Below are positions 21,411-30,066 of a stretch of 37,412 nucleotides of DNA, one piece after another. The notes under the pieces are model-generated. The model was not told where the DNA came from. It did not search any database and worked only from the letters and a program-made list of their open reading frames with translations. The first letter of the stretch is position 1. Each line of letters opens with the position of its first letter. The stretch is from Deltaproteobacteria bacterium. Lineage in GTDB: Bacteria > Myxococcota_A > Polyangia > Polyangiales > JADJMO01. The translations under genes and the position numbers were made by a program. The DNA is taken from NCBI GenBank assembly GCA_022843175.1, contig JALHOE010000075.1:1-37412 (forward strand), given 5' to 3'.

Positions 21411-22979
21411 TCAGCCGCGCCTGCGCAGGCGGCGCGAGAGCCCGGCGCTGATTTCCGCGAGCTCCTCGTTGCCGAGGGCGCGACACGCGGCGACGTAGAC
21501 GGCGACAAAGACCAGGCCGCCGAGCACGCCGGGGAAGAGCCCGGAGAGCGGCGCGGCGCGCGCGGCCGAATACCCTGCTGCGCCGGCGGCGATCGACGCA
21601 AGCGCGGCGGTGAGCGTGCTCTTGCCGATCATCGACCAGCGCAGCTCCGGCAGGCGCTTGCGGAGGAGGACCATCAAGAACCCCATCTGCACGAGCGACG
21701 AACCCGTCACCGCGAGCGACACCCCGACGTGCCCGAGCGGGCCGCGCGCGAGCAGCGCGATGGCGATGAACGCGAGGAGATCGACGCCGCTGATCGCGAC
21801 CGGCGTGCGGGTGTCCCCGAGGGCGTAGTAGAGCGGCACGAGCTGGCGAACCATCGCGACGAACACGACGCCGAGGCCCTGCACCATGAGGGCTGCGGTC
21901 GTGCCGTCCACGCTCACGGCGTCGAACGCGCCGCGGGCGAACACCGCGACCACGATCGGCCGCGCGAGGGCGAAGAGCAGCGCGCTCGCGGGCAGGCCGA
22001 CGAACAACGCGAGCCGGAACGCGTGCGCCGCGGTGGCCGCGACCTCCTCGCGCTCGCCGCGTGCGACGAGCTTGGCGAGCGAGGGCAGGGTGGCGGTCGC
22101 GAGGGCGAGGGCGAAGATGCCCTGCGGAAAATCGCACAGCCGCTGCGCGTAGTAGAACCACGAGTTCGCGCCCTCGCCGGCCTGCGAGAGGAACCGGCGC
22201 GAGAGCACCAGATCGACCTCGTAGATCATCAGGCCGAGCGTCATCGGCGCGATCCGGCGCGCGACCTCGCGGATGTGGGGATCGCGAAAATTCACCGACA
22301 GCCGCGCGGTGAAGCCGGCCGCGCGGAGATCGGGCAGCTGCGCCCACACCTGCAGCGCGCCGCCGACGAGCGCGCCGATCGCGAGCGCGTAGAGCGGATC
22401 GTAGCCGTGGCGAGCGAGCACCGGGGCGAGCGCGATCGCGCACACGATCATCGCCACGTTGAGCAACGCTGGGGCGAACGCGGCGACGCCGAACCGCTTG
22501 CGGGTCTGGAGCGCGCCAGCGCCGATCGCCGCGAGGCCCATGAAGAAGAGGTAGGGGAACACCGCGCGGGTGATCGCGACGGTGCGTTCGAACGCGCCCG
22601 GTCGCGCGTGAAAGCCGGCGGCGAACAGCTCGCAGAGGAGCGGCGCGGCGGCGACGCCGACGACGCAGGCGAGCGCGAGCACGACCCACATCACGCCGCG
22701 TAGGCGCGCGTAGAACTCCTCGGCGCGCTCGGCGCCCTCCTCCTCCTCGACCTTGGCGAGCACCGGCACGAACGCCGACGAGAGCGCGCCCTCGGCGAGC
22801 AGCTGCCGGAGCGCGTTGGGGATGGTGAACGCGACGAAGAAGAGATCGGTCGCGGCGCGCGGGAAGAACGCGGCGAGCACGAGGTCGCGGCCGAGGCCGA
22901 GCACCCGCGAGACGAGCGTGCCCGCACCGACGATGCCGGCACGGCCGGCGATGGCGCGGCGCTCGCCCGCTCCGCTCAC
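21411..22979 (-). CDS. murJ: Lipid II flippase MurJ
   Basis: A MOP-superfamily transporter that moves lipid II across the inner membrane for peptidoglycan synthesis. The 522-residue product has about 14 hydrophobic segments. It starts with the MurJ pattern GAGTLVSRVLGLGRDLVLA and IPNALRQLLAEGALSSAFVP (conserved Arg-rich N-terminus), followed by APMTLGLMIYEVDLVLSR and SWFYYAQRLCDFPQGIFALA. The GTG start overlaps the stop of the L,D-transpeptidase gene (GTGA), so the two are translationally coupled. Function is well supported by the pattern. Confidence 0.95.
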   Translation of the reverse strand: MSGAGERRAIAGRAGIVGAGTLVSRVLGLGRDLVLAAFFPRAATDLFFVAFTIPNALRQLLAEGALSSAFVPVLAKVEEEEGAERAEEFYARLRGVMWVVLALACVVGVAAAPLLCELFAAGFHARPGAFERTVAITRAVFPYLFFMGLAAIGAGALQTRKRFGVAAFAPALLNVAMIVCAIALAPVLARHGYDPLYALAIGALVGGALQVWAQLPDLRAAGFTARLSVNFRDPHIREVARRIAPMTLGLMIYEVDLVLSRRFLSQAGEGANSWFYYAQRLCDFPQGIFALALATATLPSLAKLVARGEREEVAATAAHAFRLALFVGLPASALLFALARPIVVAVFARGAFDAVSVDGTTAALMVQGLGVVFVAMVRQLVPLYYALGDTRTPVAISGVDLLAFIAIALLARGPLGHVGVSLAVTGSSLVQMGFLMVLLRKRLPELRWSMIGKSTLTAALASIAAGAAGYSAARAAPLSGLFPGVLGGLVFVAVYVAACRALGNEELAEISAGLSRRLRRRG

Positions 22980-24745
22980 GGTCGTGTGATCACGCGCGTG
23001 CCGGGGTGCGCATCATCGGCCCACACCGCGTGCCATCCCGGCGGCACCTGCGGCTCGGTCCACATGAACACGCGCTTTGCGTCGGAGGGCGAGAGGTTGA
23101 CGCAACCGTGGCTGCGCACGCGACCGAACTCGCCGTGCCAGAAGGCGCCGTGGAGCGCGTACGACGCGTGGAAGTATTGGATGTAGGGCACGTCGTCGAT
23201 CGAATAGAGCTCGCCGGACGTGTCGCCGTCCATCGTCGCGGCGACGTGCTTCTCGCGGACGCGGAAGGTGCCCTGCACGGTGGCGAACGGCGCCTTGACG
23301 GTGGTGCCGTCCTTGCCCGCGGAGATCAGGGTGACGAACACCGGCTTGTCGCCCTCGTAGGCCACCAGCGTCTCGCTCTTGATCCCGACGTCGATCCACT
23401 TCTCGCCCGGCTTGATGTCTGCGGGCGGGGCGATCTTGTCGGCGCGGTTGATGTCCTGCGCCCGCACGTAGCGGCCGTCGGCGGTGGGCACGTACGTGAT
23501 GGTGCCGCTCTTGACCTCCTCGTAGCCGGGGGCGTCTGGCGCGAGCAGGCGGATCGCCGTCTGCTTCTTGAAGCGGTCCTTGATGGAGAAGGTCTTCTTG
23601 TCCTTCGACTCGTAGATGCCCGCCTCTTTGATCAGCGAGAACGCGACCGGGAGCTGCCAGTCGCCGGTGAGCTCCACGCCCTTGAACTCCGGCGCCTTGG
23701 TGATGCTCACCGCGTCGGCGGGCGCGACGAGGCCCATCGTCGTGCGGTGCCAGGTGCGGTTGCTCCAGGTGAAGGTGCGGTCGATCGAGATCGCGAAGCC
23801 CTTGGCCATGCGACGCGCGACGAGGCCGTCGCCCTCGATGGTGTCCTTCAGCGAGATCTGCGGCTTGCCTCCCGCGTCGGCCATCCACCAGGGGACGCTG
23901 CCGGCGTCGGGCTCGGGATCGGCGATGAGCTTCGGCGGCGGGCCGGCGTCGAGCAGCTCCGACTCGCTCACCGTGTCGTGGTACGGGTCGTCGTCGTCGG
24001 AGGCCTTCTTCTTCTCGACCTTGGGCGCCGGGCGCAGCCACGGCTCGTACTCGAGCCACTGCTTGGGCGTGGGCACCTTGCGATAGAGCGGCGCGCCGTT
24101 GCGCCAGGTGAAGCCGTATTTGTAGGGCAGCAGATCGTCGAAGTTGGGCGGGGCGGTGGCGAGGCGGACGTTGGGCGCCTCGAGGTTGAGCTGGCCGCCG
24201 CCCTTCTCGAGGCACACGTAGCCGCGCGGGACGACCGCGACCCAGCCCTCTTTGCACGACGGCGACTTGATGCGCGCCACAGCCTCGCCGGGCTTCGCGT
24301 CCTTGATCGGCACCTTGGCGCCGGCGCGGAGGTAGCCGATGCGCGGCGAGCTGTAGTCCGGCTTCTCGAAGACGTGAGTCATGAAGTGCGCGGCGCCGAG
24401 CAGCACGCCGCTCATGCCGGGCACGCCGCCGTCGCGGCCGTCGATGAACGCGTCGGCGGGAATGGCGATGAGGTTGTTGCCGCCGCCGTCGCTCGGATCG
24501 ATCAGCCCGTTGCTGTGGCCCGCCGCGTGCGGAACCTCGGCCGCGCCCGCCGACGCGCTGCCCGCGTGGGTCGGCTGCGGGGGCTCGCCCGGTTTGCCGC
24601 ACGCCCAGAGCGGCGCCGAGGACATCCGGGTGGGGTTGAGGATCGCGTACGCGCCGCCCATGCCCGCGAGCAACGCGAGGACCGGCACGGCCAGGGAAGG
24701 GCGCTTGCTCTTCTTCGATCGCTTCGGGGACTGCTGCACTGCCAT
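22976..24745 (-). CDS. L,D-transpeptidase (YkuD domain) with N-terminal membrane anchor
   Basis: An L,D-transpeptidase that cross-links peptidoglycan or attaches proteins to it. The 589-residue protein starts with a basic segment and one membrane helix (LAVPVLALLAGMGGAYAIL), so it faces the periplasm. A long region rich in Asp/Gly/Pro follows; it has a probable SH3-like part (about 120-190). The C-terminal YkuD domain contains ALHGAFWHGEFG and SHGCVNLSPSDAKR with nucleophile Cys548. ATG 24745 fits. It shares a GTGA overlap with murJ, a sensible pairing of precursor export and cross-linking. No catalytic residue appears missing. Confidence 0.93.
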   Translation of the reverse strand: MAVQQSPKRSKKSKRPSLAVPVLALLAGMGGAYAILNPTRMSSAPLWACGKPGEPPQPTHAGSASAGAAEVPHAAGHSNGLIDPSDGGGNNLIAIPADAFIDGRDGGVPGMSGVLLGAAHFMTHVFEKPDYSSPRIGYLRAGAKVPIKDAKPGEAVARIKSPSCKEGWVAVVPRGYVCLEKGGGQLNLEAPNVRLATAPPNFDDLLPYKYGFTWRNGAPLYRKVPTPKQWLEYEPWLRPAPKVEKKKASDDDDPYHDTVSESELLDAGPPPKLIADPEPDAGSVPWWMADAGGKPQISLKDTIEGDGLVARRMAKGFAISIDRTFTWSNRTWHRTTMGLVAPADAVSITKAPEFKGVELTGDWQLPVAFSLIKEAGIYESKDKKTFSIKDRFKKQTAIRLLAPDAPGYEEVKSGTITYVPTADGRYVRAQDINRADKIAPPADIKPGEKWIDVGIKSETLVAYEGDKPVFVTLISAGKDGTTVKAPFATVQGTFRVREKHVAATMDGDTSGELYSIDDVPYIQYFHASYALHGAFWHGEFGRVRSHGCVNLSPSDAKRVFMWTEPQVPPGWHAVWADDAHPGTRVITRP

Positions 24746-24924: not shown

Positions 24925-26835
24925 ATGCGCGAAGCGTTCGAGGTCCTGACGAGGCGCATTCCCGCGCCGGCCGCGCTGGTCTGGGCGCTCGTCGCCGACA
25001 CCAACCGGTTCGATCGCGCCGCGGGGCTCGTCGCCGGCAACTACCGATTCCGCGACCTGCCGGACGGCACCCGCGAACGCGTCGCCACCGCCAAGCAGAC
25101 CGGCTTCAACATCGAGTGGATCGAGCCGGCCTACGACTGGCTCGAGGGGCGCTTCGTCCGCGGCGCGCGCACCTTCGTGCAGGGCCCGGCCAAGGCCGGC
25201 GGGTTCTCGGTCGAGCTCACGCCCGATCCGGCGGCGCCCGACACCGCGACGCTGGTCGAGGCGCGCGCCTGGGTCGCGGGCACCGGCTTCTTCGGGTTCG
25301 TCGCGCGCACGATCATGCGGCCTCGCTTTCGGGCCGCGCTCCGCAGCTACCTCGACGCGATCGAGGCGGTGCTCACCCGGGCGGCGGTCGAGTATCGCTG
25401 GGAGGACGAGCCGCCGGCCGCGGCCGCGCGCCGCGCGCTGCTCAACGCGCAAACGGACTCCGTCGCCTCCGGCGTGCGCTCGCCGAACCGCGAGGCCGAC
25501 TTCGACTTCCGCGCGCGCCGCTTCGGACAGACGCCGATCGAGAAGCCGCTCCGCGACAAGCTGCTCGAGTTCCTCGCGACCCGTCCCGACGAAGAGGTCG
25601 CGTCGATCCGTCCCTTCGAGGTCGCCCACGCGTGGGGCATCGATCGGCGCGAGGTGCTCCGCGCGTTCCTCCACGCCGCGCGCTCCGGGCTCGTCGAGCT
25701 GCAGTGGCAGATCAACTGTCCGTCGTGTCGGGTCGGCGCCCAGACCGCCCGCTCGCTCGACGAGGTCGAGCGCCGCGCGCACTGCGACGCATGCAACATC
25801 GGCTACGACCTCGACTTCGGCGAGCACGTCGAGGCGATCTTTCGGATCAGCCCCTCGATCCGCCAGGTCGAAACGGCCGTGTACTGTGCGAGCTCGCCGT
25901 GGTTCCGCCCGCACGTCTACGGGCAGATCACCGCGCCCGCCGGCGCCACGATCGAGCGCACCTGCGCGCTCCCTCCCGGCTCGATCCTCATCCGCACGCT
26001 GCGCCATGGTCGGCGCGCGACGGTCGAGATCGGCGCGCACGCCCCGCAGAAGCTCCTGGTCCGCCTCGACGACGATCGGTTGACGGTCGAGGCCTCGGGC
26101 GAGGTTCCGCTGGGCAAGGACACCGAGCTGCGGATCGAGAGCACGGCGACGCGCGCCGAGACGTTGCTCGTCGAGCGCACCGGGTGGAGCGCCGACATCG
26201 TCCTCGGCAGCGTCATCACGACGTTCCCCGATTTCCTCGACCTCTTCGCCACCGAGGCGCCGGCCGCCGGGGTCGAGCTCTCCGTCTCCTCGCTCACGCT
26301 CCTGTTCTCCGACCTCACCGGCTCGACGGCGCTCTACGAGCGGGTCGGCGACGCGCGCGCGTTCGCGATCGTCGAGCAGCACTTCCGCGACATGGAGCGC
26401 GCGATCACCGAGAATCAGGGCGCGATCGTCAAAACCATGGGCGACGCGGTGATGGCCACCTTCGCCTCGCCGGCCGACGCGCTCCGCGCCGGGGTGCAGA
26501 TGGTGGCCGAGTGCGAGCGCGCGCACGGCGAGCTCGGGCTCTCGGTGAAGGTCGGGCTCCACGAGGGCGCGTGCCTCGCGGTCCGCGCCAACGACAAGCT
26601 CGACTTCTTCGGCACCACGGTCAACGTCGCGGCGCGCCTGCAGGCCCAGGCGCGCGGCAGCGAGGTCGTCATCGCCGAGTCGCTCATCGAGCACCGCGGG
26701 GTCGCCGAGCTCGTGAAGGAGCAGGGCCTCCCGGCGCGCCGGTTCGAGGCGTCGCTCAAGGGGATCCGCGAGGTGCAGCGGCTGATCGGCCTCGACGCCT
26801 CCACCGCCCGGGCCAAGGAGGAGGAGGTCGCATGA
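24925..26835 (+). CDS. Adenylate cyclase with SRPBCC-like and DUF5939 regions
   Basis: A class III nucleotide cyclase making cAMP from ATP. Residues 1-165 look like an SRPBCC (START-like) ligand pocket (AFEVLTRRIPAPAALVWALV). About 210-450 matches the DUF5939 region, with a four-Cys zinc site (Cys265, Cys268, Cys287, Cys290). The catalytic domain (about 455-615) has the metal Asp463 (FSDLTGST) and Asp507 (KTMGDAV), adenine-selecting Lys503 and Asp560, and Asn567/Arg571, so it looks active and ATP-specific. ATG 24925 is favoured by GGAGGGG just upstream. No membrane segment, so it is cytoplasmic. It shares an ATGA overlap with the next gene. Confidence 0.9.
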   Translation: MREAFEVLTRRIPAPAALVWALVADTNRFDRAAGLVAGNYRFRDLPDGTRERVATAKQTGFNIEWIEPAYDWLEGRFVRGARTFVQGPAKAGGFSVELTPDPAAPDTATLVEARAWVAGTGFFGFVARTIMRPRFRAALRSYLDAIEAVLTRAAVEYRWEDEPPAAAARRALLNAQTDSVASGVRSPNREADFDFRARRFGQTPIEKPLRDKLLEFLATRPDEEVASIRPFEVAHAWGIDRREVLRAFLHAARSGLVELQWQINCPSCRVGAQTARSLDEVERRAHCDACNIGYDLDFGEHVEAIFRISPSIRQVETAVYCASSPWFRPHVYGQITAPAGATIERTCALPPGSILIRTLRHGRRATVEIGAHAPQKLLVRLDDDRLTVEASGEVPLGKDTELRIESTATRAETLLVERTGWSADIVLGSVITTFPDFLDLFATEAPAAGVELSVSSLTLLFSDLTGSTALYERVGDARAFAIVEQHFRDMERAITENQGAIVKTMGDAVMATFASPADALRAGVQMVAECERAHGELGLSVKVGLHEGACLAVRANDKLDFFGTTVNVAARLQAQARGSEVVIAESLIEHRGVAELVKEQGLPARRFEASLKGIREVQRLIGLDASTARAKEEEVA

Positions 26836-27149
26836 TCCAGCTGCTCCACGAGGACGCGCACTTCCGCGTCGAGCTCAACGCGCCCGAGCAACTCGTCCGC
26901 GTCGCCGCCCGCGCGCCGGGCGGCCTCGCGGCGATCGAGCGCGTGCTCGACTCCGTCCCGCGCGGGGGCAAGCTGTTTCTCGACCTCCGCGACGCCCCGA
27001 GCGGCGACGCGCGCCCCTTCGAGCGGCTCTTCTCGCGCTTCGCCAGGGTCGCCGTTCTGAGCCGAAAGGCTGTCCCGATCGAGGGTCAACCGGCGACGGT
27101 CGCCTCCTTCGACGACGAGGACCGCGCCTTCGATCATTTGTACGTCTGA
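26832..27149 (+). CDS. Small unknown protein coupled to the cyclase
   Basis: A 105-residue protein with no membrane segment, not recognised. It reads MIQLLHEDAHFRVELNAPEQ at the start, then AIERVLDSVPRGGKLFLDLRD and FERLFSRFARVAVLSRKAVP. The alternation of short strands and helices, with a hydrophobic strand before an aspartate, loosely recalls STAS or SpoIIAA-like folds, but I cannot support that further. The ATG overlaps the cyclase stop (ATGA), which implies fixed stoichiometry and a shared job, perhaps control of the cyclase. Confidence 0.8.
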   Translation: MIQLLHEDAHFRVELNAPEQLVRVAARAPGGLAAIERVLDSVPRGGKLFLDLRDAPSGDARPFERLFSRFARVAVLSRKAVPIEGQPATVASFDDEDRAFDHLYV

Positions 27150-27189: not shown

Positions 27190-30066
27190 ATGGCTTCGAC
27201 CCCGCGGTGGACGACCTCGCGAAAGCTCGCGCTGCTCGTGCTCCCGTTCCTCCTGGTTTGGGTGTTCCTCGCGATCCGGTCGCGCGGGCCGGTCCAGTTC
27301 GAGCGCGGCGTCGAGCTGGTCGAGGTCACCATCCCCGGGGGCGCCGCGATCGGCGGCAACCTCTCCATCGATCTCAAGTTCCGCGCCGCAGAGGCGCTCT
27401 CGCCCAACGACTCGGTGTTCCTCCACATCGAGGCGCTCGGCGAGCACTCCGATCGCAACTGCCGCATGGTGGCCGACCGGGTCGTCCCCCCTGCGCTCGC
27501 CAGCCAGTTCCAGCCCGGCCAGGTCGTCACCCACCACGTCGACGTCGCCGTCCCGTCCTCGTGCCGCGAGGCCGACTTCCGCGTGCTCACCGGCATCTGG
27601 AACACGCAGACCGGCGACCGCCGCAAGATCCTCGATCCGCAGTCGCTCGACGAGCGCCTGCACATCGCCGATCTCGAGATCGGCAGCGACGCCGATCCGA
27701 GCGCGCGCACGCTCAGCGGCAGCGAGGTCAAGCGCTACGCGCGGCTCGCGCTGCTCCGGCCCTTCGGCAAGTGGATCCTCGGGCTGTTCGCGGCGGCCGC
27801 GCTCGCGGTGCTCCTCGCCAAGCGGGTGCCCGAGAAGGAAGACGGCGAGCCGCTCCCCCGGCCCTTCCAGTTCGTCGCGCTCGCCGTCCCCACCGGCATC
27901 CTCATCGCCGGCATCCTGGTGGTGCTCGAGTTCATCAAGGACGACGCGTACATCTCGTTCCGCTACGCCCACAACTTCGTGAAGGGCAAGGGGTTGGTCT
28001 TCAACCCCGGCGAGCGGCTCGAGGGCTTCACCAACTTCCTGTGGACGCTCGTGCTCTCGCCGTTCGAGGCGCTCGGCTGGGACCTGTTCCAGGTCTGCGA
28101 GTTCCTCGGCACCGGCCTCTCGATCGTCGTCATCGCGTTCATGATGCTGTTCACGATCAGGCTCGACGAGCCGCGCAAGGACCTCTCCTTCGCGTGGGGC
28201 GCGACCTGGCTCGCGTCGTCGTCGAGCTGGGTGCTCTGGGCCAAGAGCGGCCTCGAGCAAGCCTGCGCGGCGACGCTGCCCGTCGTCGGCGCCTGGCTCC
28301 TCTTCCGCGCGATCGAGGACGCGCGGGTCGAGGAGACGAAAGACGTCCAGAAGCGGGCGGCGCTCGCCGGCTTCGTGATGGCGCTCGGGTGCATGACCCG
28401 CCCCGAGATCCACCTGGTCACGGCGATCGTCGGCGCGCCGCTCGTCTACGAGGCGATCCGGCTCAAGAAGGTCCCGCGCTACGGCCTGTACTTCGCGGCG
28501 ACGGTGCTCGCGGTCGTCGTGCCGTTCCACCTCTTCCGCTACAGCTACTACCACTCGTGGCTGCCCAACACGTTCTACGTGAAGACGGGCAAGGGCTCGA
28601 TGATCTGGCGCGCGGGCCTCGACCAGCTGCGCGAGATGCTCGACTTCAACCGCCTCGGCTACGCGCTGCTGTTCGTGCCGTTCGCGTTCGTGACCAAGAA
28701 GCGAATGATGGCGAAGCTGGTCGCGCTCGCGATCTCGGTCGCGTTCATGGGCTACATCGTCAAGGTCGGCGTCGACGAGATGCAGTGGTATCGGCTCTAC
28801 CTGCCGGCGCTGCCGTTCGTGCTCATCCTCGCCGGGCTCGGCCTCCGCAACCTGCTCGACGCGCTGCTCGCCATCCTCAAGCGCGAGGACGACGCGAACG
28901 CCAAGTGGCTCGCGGCGGCGATCGGCTGGGCCGGCGTGCTCTACGCGGCGCAGCGCAACTTCCAGTTCACCTACAAAGAGCTCCATGGCTTCGACGGCCA
29001 CGGCGATCTCTCGGGCATGTATCACCCCGACCTCGGCAAGTTCATCACGCGCCACGAGCGTCCGGGCGGCCTGGTGGCGTTCCAGGACATGGGCTCGACG
29101 CCGTACCACGCGCCGGACATCAACTTCCTCGACTTCATCGGCCTGACCGAGGGCCCGGTGGCCCGCGCGCGTCACGCCTACGGCCTGCACGCCTTCGTCC
29201 CGAGCGACGTCGCCGCCAAGCGCAAGTACGACGCCGACATGCGCGACTACTTCTGGAAGCGCAACCCGGAGTGGGCGATCCTCACGGTGTACCCGCCGCG
29301 CGATCAGGAGGCCGCGATCGCCGCCAAGTTCGACCTCGATCCGGGGCCCAACGCCATCGGCGGCGCCTACCACAACAACAGCTACCAGTTCGGCATCTGG
29401 GGCGACCAGCGCTTCCACACCGACTACGTCCACGTGCGCACGTGGCAGCGCTCGCGCGGCTACTACCTGTCGCTGTTCCGCCGCCGCGATCTGTGGGAGC
29501 AGATCCCGCGCGAGGTCGTGCTCGACGCGCCGCCGCCGAACCTCGGGGGCACCAAGGCCATGTTCGAGCGGAACATCGAGCTGCTCGGCTCACGGATCGA
29601 CGGCAACCTCGACGGCAACTTCAACCAGCCGGTCACGCGCGAGCGGCACGAGGTCTTCATCAACACCTGGTGGAAGGTGCCGGGCCCGATGGAGAAGGAC
29701 CTCACGTTCTTCGTCCACGTGAGCAAGCCCGGCTTCCAGGCCCCGCTCGACCACGCGCCGGGAGACTGGATGTACCCGGCCGACCGCTGGCGCGCGGGCG
29801 ACATCGTCGAGGACCGCGTGCTCTTCCAGCTGCCGATCAACATGCGGCCGGGGAAGTACGAGGTGTTTCTCGGCATCTACCGTCGCTCCACCGGCGAGCG
29901 CCTCAAGATCCCGAACGGCCCGGCGGACGGTCGCGTGCTCGTCGGCAGCTTCGAGGTCAAGCGCCTCTATCCGGTCATCCACCAGCTCATCCCGCCGACG
30001 GTGCCGGAGAAGATGCGCCTCTACCCGGACCGCATCCCCGACCACCACCGCCAACCCGGCCAGTGA
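27190..30066 (+). CDS. GT-C-type membrane glycosyltransferase with flanking beta domains
   Basis: A 958-residue integral membrane protein. After one N-terminal helix (12-30) comes a beta-rich periplasmic-type domain (about 35-170). A multi-span core (about 185-600) follows; it begins with KDDAYISFRYAHNF and continues GLVFNPGERLEGFTNFLW. That DD-containing loop is typical of polyprenyl-phosphate-sugar-using GT-C enzymes related to mycobacterial AftB-like arabinosyltransferases. The C-terminal part includes FFVHVSKPGFQ, DHAPGDWMYPADRW and PGKYEVFLGIYRRSTGERL, a beta domain similar to the N-terminal one. Sugar and acceptor are unknown. It stands alone between the cyclase pair and a convergent gene. 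Confidence 0.8.
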   Translation: MASTPRWTTSRKLALLVLPFLLVWVFLAIRSRGPVQFERGVELVEVTIPGGAAIGGNLSIDLKFRAAEALSPNDSVFLHIEALGEHSDRNCRMVADRVVPPALASQFQPGQVVTHHVDVAVPSSCREADFRVLTGIWNTQTGDRRKILDPQSLDERLHIADLEIGSDADPSARTLSGSEVKRYARLALLRPFGKWILGLFAAAALAVLLAKRVPEKEDGEPLPRPFQFVALAVPTGILIAGILVVLEFIKDDAYISFRYAHNFVKGKGLVFNPGERLEGFTNFLWTLVLSPFEALGWDLFQVCEFLGTGLSIVVIAFMMLFTIRLDEPRKDLSFAWGATWLASSSSWVLWAKSGLEQACAATLPVVGAWLLFRAIEDARVEETKDVQKRAALAGFVMALGCMTRPEIHLVTAIVGAPLVYEAIRLKKVPRYGLYFAATVLAVVVPFHLFRYSYYHSWLPNTFYVKTGKGSMIWRAGLDQLREMLDFNRLGYALLFVPFAFVTKKRMMAKLVALAISVAFMGYIVKVGVDEMQWYRLYLPALPFVLILAGLGLRNLLDALLAILKREDDANAKWLAAAIGWAGVLYAAQRNFQFTYKELHGFDGHGDLSGMYHPDLGKFITRHERPGGLVAFQDMGSTPYHAPDINFLDFIGLTEGPVARARHAYGLHAFVPSDVAAKRKYDADMRDYFWKRNPEWAILTVYPPRDQEAAIAAKFDLDPGPNAIGGAYHNNSYQFGIWGDQRFHTDYVHVRTWQRSRGYYLSLFRRRDLWEQIPREVVLDAPPPNLGGTKAMFERNIELLGSRIDGNLDGNFNQPVTRERHEVFINTWWKVPGPMEKDLTFFVHVSKPGFQAPLDHAPGDWMYPADRWRAGDIVEDRVLFQLPINMRPGKYEVFLGIYRRSTGERLKIPNGPADGRVLVGSFEVKRLYPVIHQLIPPTVPEKMRLYPDRIPDHHRQPGQ

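Follow-up and report, generated by a model that had tools for sequence, protein, structure and literature searches.

A class III adenylate cyclase with an SRPBCC front end overlaps the gene of a shortened SpoIIAA/STAS-like protein in one genus of Polyangiales

A class III adenylate cyclase gene in the 37,412-nucleotide stretch of DNA analysed here (contig JALHOE010000075.1, positions 1 to 37,412; the window) is followed, with overlapping stop and start codons, by a real gene for a small protein which, to judge by sequence relatives and a structural model, belongs to a Polyangiales family distantly related to SpoIIAA/STAS proteins. This pair formed in, or has been kept only in, one genus, and is a genus-level association. 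A regulatory role of the STAS-like protein on the cyclase is plausible by analogy with known pairs, and the best explanation overall, to which we give slightly less than an even chance, would be that the protein is coupled to the cyclase and binds and tunes it as an accessory. The preliminary description of this DNA, which had proposed a distinct signalling module of a ligand-sensing cyclase and a small regulator, was largely right in its observations; the module is possible, unproven and not general.

The cyclase gene (24925..26835, plus strand; 636 aa) encodes an SRPBCC domain, a DUF5939 part with a zinc ribbon, a beta-rich middle and a catalytic domain. GGAGG lies just 5' of its ATG at 24925; a longer open reading frame from 24871 was rejected in favour of this start, since conservation begins only near residue 18-26 of the longer frame. 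The SRPBCC/START-like domain (PF10604; 24949..25374) scored 29.2 bits against a curated Pfam cut-off of 27.4, DUF5939 (PF19363) 68.7 against 22.5 and Guanylate_cyc (PF00211) 64.8 against 21.9, the DUF5939 match covering only positions 20-128 of 281, the N-terminal part of the profile (25552..25875). Within the latter, a helical stretch precedes a CxxC-x18-CxxC ribbon (25717..25794) whose four cysteines are invariant across all 76 sequences of our alignment. The class III catalytic domain (26287..26688) has the D, K, D, D, N and R of an ATP-type enzyme, that is, the complete set of two metal-binding aspartates, substrate lysine and aspartate, and transition-state asparagine and arginine; these residues (D481, K521, D525, D578, N585 and R589, numbered from 24871) are invariant in 19 of the 19 sequences of the close set. 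Solved structures matched the cyclase by sequence over the catalytic region only, the nearest being Ma1120 and Rv1900c.

The full-length model of the cyclase was modest (pLDDT 65.8, pTM 0.36) and too weak for judging a pocket or docking site. Its secondary structure is of moderate confidence over the first domain, where strand, two helices, strands and a long helix follow one another in START/helix-grip order; the stretch 5' of the zinc ribbon is probably winged-helix-like, and a beta-rich region separates the ribbon from the catalytic domain. Taken together, the profiles and conserved residues bear out the START-like, zinc-ribbon DUF5939 and ATP-type catalytic parts first described: the enzyme looks intact, the sequence supports a soluble ATP-type cyclase with an SRPBCC front end, and a fair reading of that front end is as a putative intracellular sensor of a hydrophobic ligand.

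This architecture is common in the class, since DUF5939 was found in 111 of 240 genomes and most relatives of the cyclase also align across the SRPBCC part. The literature searched held no mention of DUF5939 by name and, at title and abstract level, nothing direct on SRPBCC cyclases or on pairs of a STAS protein and a class III cyclase. The genome itself has nine matches to class III cyclases and 27 to cNMP_binding (24 over the cut-off), so a cAMP network is present to receive a signal. Identifying the ligand of the SRPBCC-DUF5939 cyclases would give access to a large part of bacterial cAMP signalling that is as yet uncharacterised.

The small gene (26832..27149, plus strand; 105 codons) shares an ATGA with the cyclase, its ATG at 26832-26834 lying over the cyclase TGA at 26833-26835, an overlap of 4 nt, and is preceded by AAGGAGGAGG, a strong Shine-Dalgarno sequence. 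In the one congener available for comparison (G241, a groundwater MAG; contig JACPFM010000040.1) a homologue of ∼127 aa with ∼59% identity occupies the same place, and the junction GCATGATC is identical in the two genomes. Since both the junction and the protein behind it recur in the congener, the overlap noted at the outset is not due to chance. Between the two species dN/dS of the small gene is about 0.38-0.40 over 103 aligned codons, and the length differences fall in in-frame blocks. We accordingly rejected a fortuitous reading frame in GC-rich DNA, given the homologue, the in-frame length changes and a dN/dS below 1; the alignment indicates a real coding gene under purifying selection. 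It evolves fast, at about twice the pace of its neighbours, its dN being 0.32-0.37, according to the alignment used, and that of the neighbouring genes 0.14-0.22.

As a single query, the 105-residue protein returned nothing besides itself and noise from Pfam, NCBIfam, PDB sequences or the 240 genomes. The link to its relatives came through the longer copy of the congener as a stepping stone, which found homologues in 60 of 183 genomes of Polyangiales, among them a relative in the sister genus G178 (40% identity, E 4.5e-19) and two paralogues in the window genome (one at E 2.2e-14). The family so defined carries the motifs DLR-xx-P-x-RNDPxFE, F-x-R-x-AVLVRTAVG-x-LQV-x-R and F-x-DE-xx-ALAYL. The window protein is homologous over most of its length and keeps the core of each (DLR..P, F.R.AVL and FDDE..A), and a profile built without it recovered it at E 8.1e-8. 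It is ∼23 residues shorter than the family, in three in-frame blocks, and has lost the near-invariant RND and G-LQV-R motifs. Members of the family are stand-alone proteins of about 130 aa, often several to a genome, and no Pfam model exceeded its cut-off on those scanned.

The nearest Pfam model was SpoIIAA-like, PF11964. It matched the congener copy at E 0.0047 (18.1 bits, under the 25-bit cut-off) and 4 of 22 family members weakly, and gave no match on the window protein; the family profile in turn matched a bona fide PF11964 protein of the window genome at E 4.4e-6 and found none of the solved structures by sequence. An AlphaFold model of the window protein from a two-sequence input reached pLDDT 86.9 and pTM 0.83, although only two of the five models were confident. 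Foldseek with this model gave nothing under 1e-3, the best match being an anti-sigma antagonist complex at 2.2e-3. In a structural comparison with VIA, STAS and SpoIIAA entries led the list at Z 8-9.5 (a STAS protein at 9.5, SpoIIAA at 9.3, the SpoIIAA-like 2q3l at 8.5 and 2ook at 8.2), a modest margin over unrelated folds, which reached at most 7.8. SiaC matched at Z 7.4; as values below 8 can reflect a common arrangement, it is its biology that makes it relevant here, and we do not count it among the close structural matches. The predicted fold is of the STAS-type alpha/beta kind. First described as a protein of no known family, the small protein is placed by its relatives in a widespread SpoIIAA/STAS-like family, and its gene is no longer an orphan.

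We found the pair of cyclase and small gene in both genomes of the genus that we compared (2/2). Beside the ∼60%-identical cyclases of three other genomes of the same family (G178, G239 and G240) the small gene was absent; G240 keeps the order MurJ - L,D-transpeptidase - cyclase, after which comes a different gene. Searching downstream of 91 distinct cyclase loci with the family profile gave a single significant match, the window's own small gene; 70 of these loci had at least 600 nt of downstream sequence, and 17 of the 19 closest cyclases were so covered. Conversely, among 40 loci of the small-protein family a class III cyclase was nearby only at the pair itself. A widespread module of cyclase and small gene was therefore rejected, the small gene being missing beside the orthologues covered outside the genus, and to that extent the general form of the module first envisaged largely falls. 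Adjacency in the two congeners is itself weak evidence of a functional link, because the neighbourhood of the pair is wholly syntenic between them. A different family of the class has another conserved gene, of ∼144 aa, a short distance after the cyclase orthologue (loci L118, L120, L135 and L136); its product has the motif RFPWRRRKPR...LWADP...ALVRSLVEHHA and no Pfam match.

Upstream and divergent from the cyclase (21411-24745, minus strand) lie genes for the lipid II flippase MurJ and a YkuD-type L,D-transpeptidase, the order that G240 retains. The gene that starts some 40 nt beyond the small gene (27190..30066, plus strand) encodes a 958-aa protein with a partial glycosyltransferase-family match; it is also the next gene in the congener and possibly in the same transcript as the small gene, given the short gap and the same order in the congener. 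This protein has a partial NCBIfam match to arabinofuranosyltransferase, and its gene is not the one that follows the cyclase in G240.

This distribution bears on whether the small gene is a passenger, that is, a family member that came to lie next to the cyclase before the genus diversified, perhaps along with the glycosyltransferase-like gene, and has since been kept or is slowly decaying without a role in control of the cyclase, the overlap reflecting only operon packing. Its restriction to one genus, the retention by G240 of the upstream genes and cyclase without it, its rapid divergence, its loss of ∼23 residues and of the RND motif, and the occurrence of other family members in unrelated places are all as such an origin would predict, and short gene overlaps are common in bacterial operons. 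The gene is nevertheless still under purifying selection, its product is predicted to fold well and the exact coupled junction has been kept in both species. We rate a passenger origin a little below an even chance, which makes it and regulation of the cyclase about equal in odds. The narrow distribution and the shortened copy count against regulation, and so does the state of the cyclase gene in the congener, whose assembled sequence changes reading frame in the linker that follows the SRPBCC domain (locus L151, 3998-5843 of JACPFM010000040.1), through either an assembly error or a genuine break in the gene.

The fold raises two further readings. The classical partners of STAS/SpoIIAA proteins are GHKL anti-sigma kinases, and the small protein could have kept such a role with a kinase or anti-sigma protein from another locus, its linkage to the cyclase serving co-expression only. 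Fold matches to SpoIIAA-SpoIIAB and RsbV-RsbW complexes agree with this, but the neighbouring genes that we scanned included no kinase, phosphatase or anti-sigma gene, and the canonical phosphorylatable serine of SpoIIAA was not located in the Polyangiales family, in which the motif before helix 2 has, by sequence alignment, the consensus P-x-R-N-D (P-S-G-D in the window protein). We consider a partner other than the cyclase improbable. A hand-over of lipid, in which the SpoIIAA-like protein would act as a CRAL-TRIO-type carrier delivering a nonpolar ligand to the cyclase's START-like domain, is suggested by the conjunction of that adjoining domain with a published proposal: the cavity of 2q3l is large and nonpolar, the protein resembles CRAL-TRIO carriers, and a role in carrying nonpolar compounds has been put forward for SpoIIAA-like proteins (PMC2954212). 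The model of the small protein does match 2q3l and 2ook (at the Z scores given above), but the residues missing from the window copy appear to fall in helices and loops like those that surround the cavity in solved relatives, and we regard this as the least probable of the readings.

We return to the preferred explanation, that the STAS-like protein is a regulatory accessory to the cyclase. The SRPBCC domain would sense a small nonpolar ligand, the zinc-ribbon and helical part would relay this signal to the dimeric catalytic domain, and the latter would make cAMP for the many cNMP-binding proteins of the genome. Translational coupling may keep synthesis of the STAS-like protein matched to that of the cyclase, to which the protein might bind directly, adjusting how the enzyme dimerises or how active it is, in the manner of SiaC with SiaD; as orthologues of the cyclase occur without the protein, its part would be auxiliary, not indispensable. 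Class III cyclases work as dimers and STAS-type proteins control diguanylate cyclases, so a similar accessory role is a reasonable proposal. SiaC binds the stalk of the diguanylate cyclase SiaD, promotes the active dimer and so activates the enzyme, and BgrV and HsbA control BgrR and HsbD (PMC8457831). A partner gene of the SiaC-SiaD type would be expected to be conserved beside its cyclase; here such conservation was found in one genus only. Of the small regulator first proposed, what stands is its STAS-like nature, shared with the switches of diguanylate cyclases elsewhere; the single-genus occurrence and the shortened, fast-evolving copy leave the idea of a distinct module weakly supported. 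The fuller claim is that the class III adenylate cyclase senses a nonpolar ligand through its SRPBCC domain and is under direct control of the STAS/SpoIIAA-like protein, which would extend the partner-switch logic of diguanylate cyclases to cAMP signalling in one genus; we consider it doubtful. If the STAS-like neighbour does control the cyclase, the pair would show how partner-switch proteins come to serve a nucleotide cyclase of a new class.

Compared with known systems, the window cyclase shares its catalytic fold and all ATP-type residues with the class III adenylyl cyclases Ma1120 and Rv1900c and differs from them in its SRPBCC and DUF5939 front end, the sequence match being confined to the catalytic region. 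It belongs with the DUF5939 cyclases (PF19363), whose other members compared here, the congener excepted, are without the small downstream gene that it has. The small protein has in common with the SpoIIAA-like proteins of PF11964 (2q3l and 2ook) and with STAS proteins a predicted fold and, via its relatives, a weak profile link; unlike them it is itself without a Pfam match and is shortened, and the SpoIIAA serine switch was not identified in it. The closest functional parallels are SiaC-SiaD, HsbA-HsbD and BgrV-BgrR, which likewise pair a small STAS-like protein with a nucleotide cyclase. Those cyclases, however, are diguanylate cyclases working in phosphorylation-based partner switches, whereas the window pair would join a STAS-like protein to a class III adenylate cyclase, at a locus where no kinase or phosphatase was seen.
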